Part shown: positions 3,660 to 6,090 of the stretch, piece after piece
Layout of the letters: the number at the start of each line of letters is the position of its first letter
Numbering within the stretch: the stretch's first letter is position 1
NCBI GenBank assembly: GCA_040902535.1
Contig: JBBDXD010000022.1
Span: 130,104-194,103 of the forward strand
DNA length: 64,000 nucleotides
Source of the DNA: Dehalococcoidia bacterium
GTDB lineage: Bacteria; Chloroflexota; Dehalococcoidia; DSTF01; JACRBR01
Direction of reading: 5' to 3'
The notes under the pieces: model-generated
The model's input: only the letters and a program-made list of their open reading frames with translations
Database searches by the model: none
Told to the model about the DNA's origin: nothing
Program-made: the position numbers and the translations under genes

Positions 3660-3702
3660 GTCGCTACACTGGGCCGGGTTCATTGCATCGGGAGGGTGGC
3701 GC

Positions 3703-4113
3703 ATGCCCGTGTACGAGTATCTCTGCAAACATTGCGACGGCATCTTCGAGGCCATCCGCCCGATGAGCCAGGCGTCCGACGCGGCTCCGTGCCCGGTCTG
3801 CAATCGTAAAGCCCGGCGCGTGCCACCGACATCGTTCTCCGCCCGCACGATGCGTGAAGGCTATCCGCGCGCGATTCCCGACCGTGGCACCTACTACCAC
3901 CTCGGCAAGGAAGTGAAGTCGCGCATCACCGGCTCGACGCGCATGAACGAGCACCCCGAACTCGCGAAGCCGCGGCCGAAGCCCACAAAGTCGAAGGGCG
4001 AACGCGAGATCGTCCGTGAGAAGAAGTTTGCCGAAGCGAAGGAAGAAGCCCGCAAGCGGCGCGATGGCGTGCCGCGCGTCATCGACCGGACGAAGCGCCG
4101 CAGCGACGACTAG
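3703..4113 (+). CDS. FmdB-family zinc ribbon protein
   Basis: The N-terminus is the classic FmdB-type zinc ribbon: MPVYEYLCKHCDGIFE followed by CPVC about 20 residues later gives the four-Cys site. After residue 60 the protein is charged and rich in Lys, Arg and Glu, with a basic end (RTKRRSDD). FmdB-type proteins are named after a putative regulator of amidase and formamidase genes, but most are uncharacterised and some may bind nucleic acid. A GGGAGGG ribosome-binding site lies just upstream of the ATG. At 136 residues it is longer than the minimal 70-110 residue members because of the basic tail. Confidence 0.8.
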   Translation: MPVYEYLCKHCDGIFEAIRPMSQASDAAPCPVCNRKARRVPPTSFSARTMREGYPRAIPDRGTYYHLGKEVKSRITGSTRMNEHPELAKPRPKPTKSKGEREIVREKKFAEAKEEARKRRDGVPRVIDRTKRRSDD

Positions 4114-4171: not shown

Positions 4172-5209
4172 TCAGTCGATTCCGCAGTGCTCCGGCTCGA
4201 GGTCGGGACGCAGCGCGCTGAAAATCGGAAAGCGCAGGTATCCGTCGCCGGACCATTCGCTGAACCGCACGTGGCAGACCACCTTCGGTTCGGTCCAGTA
4301 GACCAGCCTCGCGATCGGCGGCGGGTCGTCGAACGTCGGCGTATCACGGACGAGCGGCTCAAGCATCGCCACTAACTGCTTCGCTTCGGCGTCGTTCAAG
4401 CCGCCGGCCACGGCGCCGACGTATTCGAAGCGACTGTCCGTGTAGCCGCCGAGCAGTAACTGGCTGAACGGGTCGCCTTTACGGCGCGTTCCCCCGAACG
4501 TGTACCCGCCCACGACGAAATCGCCGCTCCGCAGCGCCCGCACCTCGAGCCAGTCGCCTGACCGCGTACCGGGCGTGTACTCGCTGATCTTCCGCTTCGC
4601 GACGATGCCCTCGAGCCGTCGTTGCAGCACCGCGTCGAAGAACGCGATGCCCTCGTCGTCGACGAAGTCCACCGCCGCGAACTCCGCGCTGGGCCGGATC
4701 ACGTCATGGAGCCGGTTCTTGCGTTGCCAGAGCGTCTTGCCGACGAGCGAGCGCCCATCGAGCCACAGCAGGTCGAATGCCTGGTAGCAAAGTTGGCCCT
4801 CGACCTTACGCGGTTTGGTGAACTCGATCGGCGGCCCTTCTGCCGGCATCGACATAGCGTGCAGGCGGGGCCGCAGCGCGTCGAACGCCGGGTGGCCCTG
4901 CGCGTCCACGACGATGATCTCGCCGTCGAGGATCGCCTCGTAGGCGTTGAGCATGCCCGGAATGTGCGACAGCTCAGGGAAGTAGGGCGTCAGGTCGCGA
5001 CCATTTCGCCCCGCGAGCCGCACGACGCCGTCGTGTACGTACGCCATGGCGCGCAGGCCGCCCCACATCAGTTCGAAGATATGGTCGCGCGAATCAAACG
5101 GCTCCGGCGCGTCCTGTGCGAGCATCGGCGCGATGCTCGAAGGCATGCGGGAGGACGCAGCCCGTTTACTCGAGATAGACGTCGGCCCGTCGGTGTGGGA
5201 CGAGCTCAT
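4172..5209 (-). CDS. LigD-type ATP-dependent DNA ligase homologue with substituted active site
   Basis: This 345-residue protein aligns along the ligase and OB-fold domains of LigD. It has the typical opening IAPMLAQDAPEPF, a Glu-containing motif III (LDGEIIVVD, Glu97), motif IIIa FDLLWLDGR and motif IV EGIVAKR. The key motif I, normally KWDG with the nucleophilic Lys that becomes AMP-linked, here reads MWGG at residues 48-51. Motif V, normally DWLKxK, reads DWLEVR at 219-224. Thus the adenylated lysine and both motif V lysines are absent. The reading frame is otherwise intact. Its start overlaps the Ku stop as ATGA, so the two are translationally coupled. It is either an inactive structural partner or an unusual enzyme. 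Confidence 0.85.
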   Translation of the reverse strand: MSSSHTDGPTSISSKRAASSRMPSSIAPMLAQDAPEPFDSRDHIFELMWGGLRAMAYVHDGVVRLAGRNGRDLTPYFPELSHIPGMLNAYEAILDGEIIVVDAQGHPAFDALRPRLHAMSMPAEGPPIEFTKPRKVEGQLCYQAFDLLWLDGRSLVGKTLWQRKNRLHDVIRPSAEFAAVDFVDDEGIAFFDAVLQRRLEGIVAKRKISEYTPGTRSGDWLEVRALRSGDFVVGGYTFGGTRRKGDPFSQLLLGGYTDSRFEYVGAVAGGLNDAEAKQLVAMLEPLVRDTPTFDDPPPIARLVYWTEPKVVCHVRFSEWSGDGYLRFPIFSALRPDLEPEHCGID

Positions 5210-6090
5210 CCAGCCTTCCTGCGACGGGCGGGTTTCGCCTCTTCCTTGTCGTCTCTACTGGCCTTCGATGCGCGCTTTGCCGGAGCCGCTTCCTCATCCT
5301 CAGCAGCCTCTCCGCCGCGCTCGCGCCGCGCGTTCTCGACGCTGGCGCGCAGTGCTTCCATGAGATCCGTGACCTTGCTCACCGCGGGCGTCGCGGGCCG
5401 CGAGATCTCCTGGCCTTCCGCCTTCTGCTCGATCAGCTCCAAAAGTGCCTCGCGGTAGTTGTCCTGGTATTTCTCCGGCTCAAAGTCGCCCGTCAGCATC
5501 TCGACGAGCGACTTCGCCATCTTCAACTCCCGCTCGCCGATCTTGCCGTCCTCCGGTACGTCGAACTCCTCCGTAGAACGGATCTCGTCGGCATAGAACA
5601 TCGTCTCGAGCGCGATCGTCTTGTTGTACAGCCGTAGCGTCGCGAGCTGCTCCTTCTGGCGCAGCGTCACCTTTGCCAGTGCGATGAGCTTCGAGTCCTT
5701 GAGGACCTCGCGCAGCAGCGCGAAGGGCTTCGCGCCGATCTTCTCCGGCTCCAGGTAATACGTCTTCTGGTAGTAGATCGGGTCGATCTGGTCCGCTGGC
5801 ACGAAGTCCGTGATCTCGATCGTCCGCGTCGTGTCGACCGGCACCTTCTCGAAGTCGTCGTTTTCCAGGATCACGTACTGGCCGGGCGAGATCTCATACC
5901 CCTTAACGATGTCATTCAGCTCGACGACTTCGTCATCGGCCGGACAGTAGCGCTGATAGCGGATGCGCTCGTGGTCGGTCTTGTGAAGTTGATTGAAGGA
6001 GATGTCCTTCTCGTCGGTCGCGGTGTACAGCTTGATCGGGATGCTCACCATCCCAAAGCTCACCGCTCCCTTCCAGAGTGCTCGAGGCAT
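5206..6090 (-). CDS. ku: Ku, DNA end-binding protein of bacterial NHEJ
   Basis: Bacterial Ku forms a homodimeric ring on double-strand break ends and recruits LigD. The protein opens MPRALWKGAVSFGMVSIPIKLYTAT, a near-universal Ku start, followed by HKTDHERIRYQRYCP and the beta-barrel core through MLTGDFEPEKYQDNYREALLELI. At 294 residues it is typical, ending in an acidic then Lys/Arg-rich tail from about residue 255, like the basic C-terminal extensions that modulate DNA binding and ligase contact in other Ku proteins. It is the first gene of a two-gene operon with the altered ligase. A TTGACA lies upstream on the same strand near position 6155, but no well-spaced -10 is evident. Confidence 0.95.
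   Translation of the reverse strand: MPRALWKGAVSFGMVSIPIKLYTATDEKDISFNQLHKTDHERIRYQRYCPADDEVVELNDIVKGYEISPGQYVILENDDFEKVPVDTTRTIEITDFVPADQIDPIYYQKTYYLEPEKIGAKPFALLREVLKDSKLIALAKVTLRQKEQLATLRLYNKTIALETMFYADEIRSTEEFDVPEDGKIGERELKMAKSLVEMLTGDFEPEKYQDNYREALLELIEQKAEGQEISRPATPAVSKVTDLMEALRASVENARRERGGEAAEDEEAAPAKRASKASRDDKEEAKPARRRKAG

Follow-up and report, generated by a model that had tools for sequence, protein, structure and literature searches.

A conserved Ku-coupled pseudo-ligase of the LigD type with altered catalytic motifs in Dehalococcoidia

Analysis of a 64,000-nucleotide stretch of a Dehalococcoidia genome (the window) identified a Ku gene that overlaps a gene for a LigD-type ligase domain, in which the nucleophile lysine and aspartate of motif I and both lysines of motif V have been replaced. 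The same four sites are changed in all eight genomes of the family, and the gene is kept under purifying selection. Loss of catalytic residues combined with such selection marks the protein as a pseudoenzyme, and we regard its group as an offshoot of LigD-type ligase domains with this character. On balance, and with analogy to ligase IV as a guide, we lean towards a functional, conserved pseudo-ligase that would act as a non-catalytic partner of Ku or DNA ends in end joining while LigD seals.

The Ku–ligase locus

The window belongs to a metagenome-assembled genome of the Chloroflexota (Dehalococcoidia; G000, 96% complete), and its Ku gene is the sole PF02735 match of that whole genome. The locus contains the following features.

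5206..6090, minus strand: Ku gene, 294 aa (TIGR02772, 328.9 bits, E 2.1e-98; Pfam PF02735)
4172..5209, minus strand: pseudo-ligase gene, LigD-type ligase domain, 345 aa (PF01068 and PF04679; TIGR02779, 225.5 bits)
5206..5209, minus strand: ATGA overlap of Ku stop and ligase start (-3 junction, 8/8 family loci)
4547..5128, minus strand: nucleotidyltransferase (NTase) domain, residues 28-221 (PF01068)
4202..4474, minus strand: OB-fold domain, residues 246-336 (PF04679)

The direct coupling of Ku to a ligase-like gene is the arrangement of a bacterial NHEJ operon, and both the Pfam and TIGR matches and the 4-base overlap bear out an earlier sequence-only reading of this DNA, which had described Ku coupled to a LigD-type ligase. 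The ATGA overlap with the Ku stop recurs at all eight family loci (8 genomes, 5 genera), and translational coupling of Ku and the pseudo-ligase through it is likely. A gene for a zinc-ribbon protein (PF09723; window positions 3664-4113, plus strand) lies convergent with the ligase gene, with no evident link to repair.

The 345-aa open reading frame matched Pfam DNA_ligase_A_M at 94.8 bits and DNA_ligase_A_C at 80.5 bits, both above cut-off, and its TIGR02779 score was narrowly below the curated cut-off of 227.75. An AlphaFold2 model had a pLDDT of 92.6 and a pTM of 0.88, with approximately 20 N-terminal residues and two loops of low confidence. The best PDB structural matches of this model were DNA ligases, the first being the M. 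tuberculosis LigD ligase domain, and the full-length best fits among the matches listed were archaeal ligases such as 4EQ5 (TM 0.72). The Pfam order, the model and the structure matches all indicate the NTase plus OB order and fold of a LigD-type ligase domain; the 345 residues hold ligase domains only, with no polymerase or phosphoesterase fusion as in multidomain LigD. The landmarks LDGE (94-97), FDLLWLDG (145-152), EGIVAKR (200-206) and WLEVR (220-224) were located in the protein, and the fold-level ones, including the OB fold, were as the sequence-only reading had listed them. With a net charge that averages -5.9 over the family members, the ligase-like domain lacks the positive charge that would make strong DNA binding obvious.

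Catalytic residues and selection

Residues were mapped by aligning the family profile to M. tuberculosis LigD (1VS0, E 4e-69), with numbering counted from the alignment and with residue roles as given in PMC8656161. Positions relevant to catalysis are as follows.

5066..5068, minus strand: Met48, site of the motif I nucleophile lysine (M. tuberculosis LigD K481); ATG codon; M in six and L in two family members
5060..5062, minus strand: Gly50, site of the motif I Asp (D483); G in 8/8 family members
4544..4546, minus strand: Glu222, site of motif V lysine K635; E in six and Q in two family members
4538..4540, minus strand: Arg224, site of motif V lysine K637; R in 8/8 family members
5051..5053, minus strand: Arg53 (R486, ribose contact), kept; invariant in the 42 clade rows tabulated (42/42)
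4595..4597, minus strand: Lys205 (K618, adenine contact, motif IV), kept; K in 41/42 clade rows, R in one
4610..4612, minus strand: Glu200 (E613, metal ligand, motif IV), kept here; E in seven and D in one family member

Codons 45-54 (TTC GAA CTG ATG TGG GGC GGC CTG CGC GCC; F E L M W G G L R A) confirm that motif I is MWGG, encoded by ATG TGG GGC GGC, in place of KxDG with its nucleophile lysine. The earlier description of motif V as WLEVR also proved correct and can be refined: both lysines of the KxK pair are gone, the first with a reversal of charge (K635 to E222) and the second by replacement with arginine (K637 to R224). In LigD domains (n=25), the motif I lysine, the motif I aspartate and the motif V KxK are all invariant (25/25). 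K481 is the nucleophile of M. tuberculosis LigD, and the engineered K481M change, which trapped the pre-adenylylation state in crystal structure 6NHZ (PMC8656161), is the same change that Met48 represents in nature. Nick sealing by M. tuberculosis LigD is abolished by E613A or K637A; Lys-to-Arg at K637 is not among the LigD mutants described (PMC8656161).

Conservation among homologues had been proposed as a check with the sequence-only reading: all eight family members, which share 62-71% identity and represent five genera, carry the ligase-like gene, in which position 48 is M or L, position 50 is G, position 222 is E or Q and position 224 is R. Glycine at position 50 is also found at six related KWGG/RWGG loci. 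That reading had named a wrong base in the assembly at motif I as something that would refute it; such an error was rejected, since eight independent genomes carry the same change. Pseudogene decay was likewise rejected by the open reading frame in all family genomes and by omega, which is well below 1 in all pairs tested. Within the family, omega for the ligase-like gene is approximately 0.12-0.27, near that of Ku; in close pairs across the clade, dN/dS ranges from 0.05 to 0.31 for the ligase-like gene and from 0.06 to 0.22 for Ku, the lowest values being rough because some pairs are saturated at synonymous sites. Taken over the family alignment, the four changes give good support to loss of the normal route of self-adenylation, as the sequence-only reading had proposed from one sequence; mutants of LigD (PMC8656161) and motif I and V mutants of yeast Dnl4 (PMC3694833) point to the same loss.

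LigD has 65 columns with a conservation of 85% or more. Ten of them are lost in the whole family, namely all four phosphate-chemistry columns (48, 50, 222 and 224) and 6 of the 61 others (Fisher p 3e-4, in a post hoc test for which the columns were grouped once the data had been seen, and in which the rows are related). The residues R68, E97 and R216 (R501, E530 and R629 of M. tuberculosis LigD) are also kept in the pseudo-ligase; R68 and E200 have been lost in several clade lineages, with E200 replaced by H, A, G or P in some other pseudo-lineages. E46 and R53, the adenine/ribose contacts, are invariant in all degraded lineages, including those without Ku, and K205 is replaced once among them, by R. 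The alignment thus shows a selective erosion, in which phosphate-transfer chemistry has gone and the adenosine pocket is largely kept, and this pattern fits a fold-keeping constraint or non-covalent nucleotide binding alike.

Two further candidates were discarded. A shifted nucleophile near motif I was rejected, there being no conserved lysine in that region, and loss of the motif VI lysine was dropped as an additional sign of inactivity because several intact LigDs also do without it, including that of the window's own genome (REDI).

Relatives, other ligases and copies without Ku

Relatives were collected by scanning 84,980 species genomes with a pattern left free at the lysine position, together with whole-genome searches. 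The stand-alone relatives occur mainly in Dehalococcoidia and in soil Chloroflexota/Dormibacteraeota. A tree built without the catalytic columns set 43 stand-alone proteins apart from 18 LigD-type domains, with support of 100/98 for the branch between them; the pseudo-ligase therefore does not group with the LigD ligase domains, and whether its clade is sister to them or nested depends on the root. One subgroup of the clade (L050, L047, L052, L053 and L056) has intact KWDG and WLKIK motifs.

At least six changes of the motif I lysine, at least five of the motif I aspartate and at least five in motif V were counted on the tree, counts that alone do not separate loss from gain; loss is the natural direction, the full catalytic set being present both in LigD and in the intact subgroup. 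Motif I reads MWGG or LWGG in the window's family, KWGG, RWGG, AWDG, LRGG, LWGG or LWEG in other families, and I/L-WDG, KWEG or QWEG elsewhere in the clade. In the window's branch of 14 members, the aspartate is lost in all 14 and the lysine survives in five, and aspartate loss therefore probably preceded lysine loss there, as judged from the tree. The sequence-only reading had considered the change in relation to Ku at a single locus; the change extends beyond that locus and is part of a recurrent erosion across the clade.

Several other lineages of the clade deserve description. A separate Ku-coupled lineage (L159-L164, in G224, G281, G263, G186 and G336) keeps the lysine, in the form KWEG, and its motif IV metal ligand has changed from E to H, another route to active-site loss. 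In the lineage of L054, L055, L071 and L162, LDGE has become LDGV, LDGA or IDGV and the motif I lysine is lost too. An intact LigD adjoins the clade gene in at least two loci (L055 and L162).

The second ligase that the sequence-only reading had anticipated does exist. Three PF01068 genes besides the pseudo-ligase were found in the window's genome: a full LigD on contig C19 with PE-LIG-POL domains and intact KMDG and WLKVK motifs, a LigC-type ligase (NF006078 / PRK08224) with KWDG, and a short LigD-like ligase. The last of these (L004, L005; G000:C23:24784-25659; 296 aa) has intact KFDG and WLKMK motifs and a shortened stretch after LDGE, and a similar ligase of 307 aa occurs in G011. LigD was found in seven of the eight family genomes, always with KLDG or KMDG and with KxK, the remaining genome being 72% complete; sealing capacity therefore exists in trans.

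No Ku was found in six genomes that carry lysine-less copies, namely G044 (95% complete), G073 (98%), G117 (70%), G103 (82%), G084 (96%) and G147 (96%). These genomes represent three separate lineages, and in each the sole PF01068 match is the lysine-less protein, LigD not being found; the absence of both Ku and LigD is probable, all six being drafts. Omega for two close Ku-less pairs was 0.05 (saturated) and 0.15. Because lysine-less copies persist without Ku or LigD, some role of the protein is independent of Ku, at least in some relatives. No shared gene neighbourhood was seen among the Ku-less copies when the adjacent genes were judged by eye from the first part of their sequences, with a simple gene caller that missed the ligases L191 and L195 themselves; the neighbours are presumably CoA transferases, NADH dehydrogenase subunits and a substrate-binding protein. 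The QWEG proteins of two of these genomes (L149 and L150, in G147 and G084) have a net charge of approximately -15, unlike most LigD domains, and ordinary DNA binding is disfavoured for them because they are so acidic. In G009, an RWGG pseudo-ligase (L166/L196) and Ku are on separate contigs, and the gene near Ku is instead LigD; coupling to Ku can thus be broken with the pseudo-ligase gene retained.

Possible functions and comparison with known systems

In the mechanism that we favour, the NTase and OB domains would be made together with Ku and would form no covalent ligase-AMP intermediate. The retained ligase fold would engage Ku, the DNA end or both, and might help synapsis, hold the ends or gate access to them, while end processing and sealing would be carried out by the separate complete LigD. 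A scaffold role with Ku, one of the functions that the sequence-only reading had put forward, is plausible given its precedent in eukaryotic ligase IV. Yeast Dnl4 proteins with the motif I/V changes K282R, D284A or K466A, in which adenylation is severely reduced, still gather at breaks and support imprecise joining (PMC3694833); catalytically dead Lig4 stimulates joining through a different ligase (PMC9638927, PMC11754673), and synapsis requires DNA binding by Lig4 (PMC10858965). In M. tuberculosis, the Ku core directly binds the LigD ligase domain (PMC9638933). By analogy with these proteins we infer a structural role at ends. The favoured mechanism also supposes that sealing activity is lost altogether, that the protein touches Ku or DNA, and that it helps joining instead of inhibiting it. 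The interpretation given with the sequence-only reading is, as a whole, partly supported: the loss of adenylation stands, and a pure Ku scaffold leaves the copies without Ku and LigD unexplained.

Because those copies may leave a scaffold role incomplete, some weight is given to a possible, though doubtful, alternative, in which the pocket would bind ATP, AMP, NAD or a 5'-adenylated DNA end without chemistry and would report energy state or abortive ligation, partly independently of Ku. E46, R53 and, nearly always, K205 outlast the phosphate-transfer residues in the degraded lineages, the equivalent residues of LigD touch adenine and ribose, crystals of the K481M ligase domain contained ATP and magnesium (PMC8656161), and the gene is kept in three separate lineages without detected Ku or LigD. 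However, the three residues may be retained for folding alone, R68 and E200 have gone from several lineages, and the Ku-less neighbours, assigned by eye, suggest no common pathway. A speculative extension, to which we attach a low likelihood, is that, within one bacterial class, the ligase fold turned on at least six occasions from an enzyme of end joining into a protein that binds adenosine nucleotides or adenylated ends non-covalently, acting with Ku where Ku is present and alone where Ku and LigD have gone; if this were true, ligase-derived sensors or regulators would form a class of their own, new to the field.

The dead domain might instead compete with LigD for Ku or ends and so limit error-prone joining. 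The data that suggest a scaffold suit such a negative regulator equally, and co-translation with Ku would set the ratio, but dead Dnl4 showed no dominant-negative effect in yeast (PMC3694833) and persistence without Ku is left unexplained, which makes this function unlikely. The use of pre-adenylated ends, which the sequence-only reading had also suggested, is disfavoured. LigD, which could adenylate such ends, is present in the same cells, and motif I lysine mutants of the RNA ligase MthRnl retain step 3 on pre-adenylated substrates; however, a double mutant in motifs I and V is inactive in all steps (PMC3514331), both motifs and the motif I aspartate are changed in the pseudo-ligase, and other lineages have also lost the metal-binding glutamate. 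Loss of step 3 is thus probable by comparison with MthRnl, and a step 3-only ligase is quite improbable. An active enzyme with another nucleophile or altered chemistry is very improbable: the family has three fixed lysines (K164, K205 and K207), of which K205 belongs to the pocket by homology, but its LigD counterpart already serves adenine recognition, the motif V and motif I aspartate losses remove transition-state stabilisation, and replacement of the lysine by M, L, I, Q, R or A according to lineage suggests lost constraint and not one new chemistry. Erosion of catalytic residues in several lineages might be taken for a decaying gene or an assembly error, but open frames, low omega and identical changes in independent assemblies make this scarcely credible. 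The reading that we still prefer is that of a non-catalytic partner in end joining.

Whether ligase IV has a structural role in end joining apart from sealing is a live question in eukaryotes, which the studies cited above addressed with engineered mutants. A natural, conserved and repeatedly evolved dead ligase coupled to Ku would allow an independent test in bacteria, where the system is simple. A Ku-plus-ligase operon is by itself no evidence of a sealing-competent pair, and copies that persist in the absence of Ku and LigD would suggest an additional role of the ligase fold. A limited search of the open-access literature found no described bacterial pseudo-ligase or natural ligase-dead partner of Ku, which is weak evidence that none has been described.

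Among known systems, the LigD ligase domain (TIGR02779; M. tuberculosis LigD LIG, 1VS0, 6NHX, 6NHZ) has the same NTase plus OB architecture and link to Ku, is the best PDB sequence match of the family profile, and shares its adenosine-contact residues with the pseudo-ligase. The pseudo-ligase differs from it in standing alone, in lacking the nucleophile, the motif I aspartate and the motif V lysines, in scoring just under the family cut-off and in forming its own clade. The LigC-type ligase of the same genome is also a stand-alone NTase plus OB protein of similar length, but its motifs are intact, it belongs to a different family and it is not located beside Ku. The stand-alone ligases L050, L052 and L056 share the clade and length of the pseudo-ligase and usually lie beside Ku; unlike it, they retain all catalytic residues and so are probably active, and they probably show the ancestral condition. 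Dead ligase IV proteins (yeast Dnl4-K282R/D284A, human Lig4-K273A and mouse Lig4-K273S) resemble the pseudo-ligase in being ligases of a Ku pathway with the motif I lysine or aspartate removed, and they still recruit or aid another ligase in those studies, but they are laboratory mutants of a larger eukaryotic protein, whereas the pseudo-ligase is a natural and long-conserved bacterial state.
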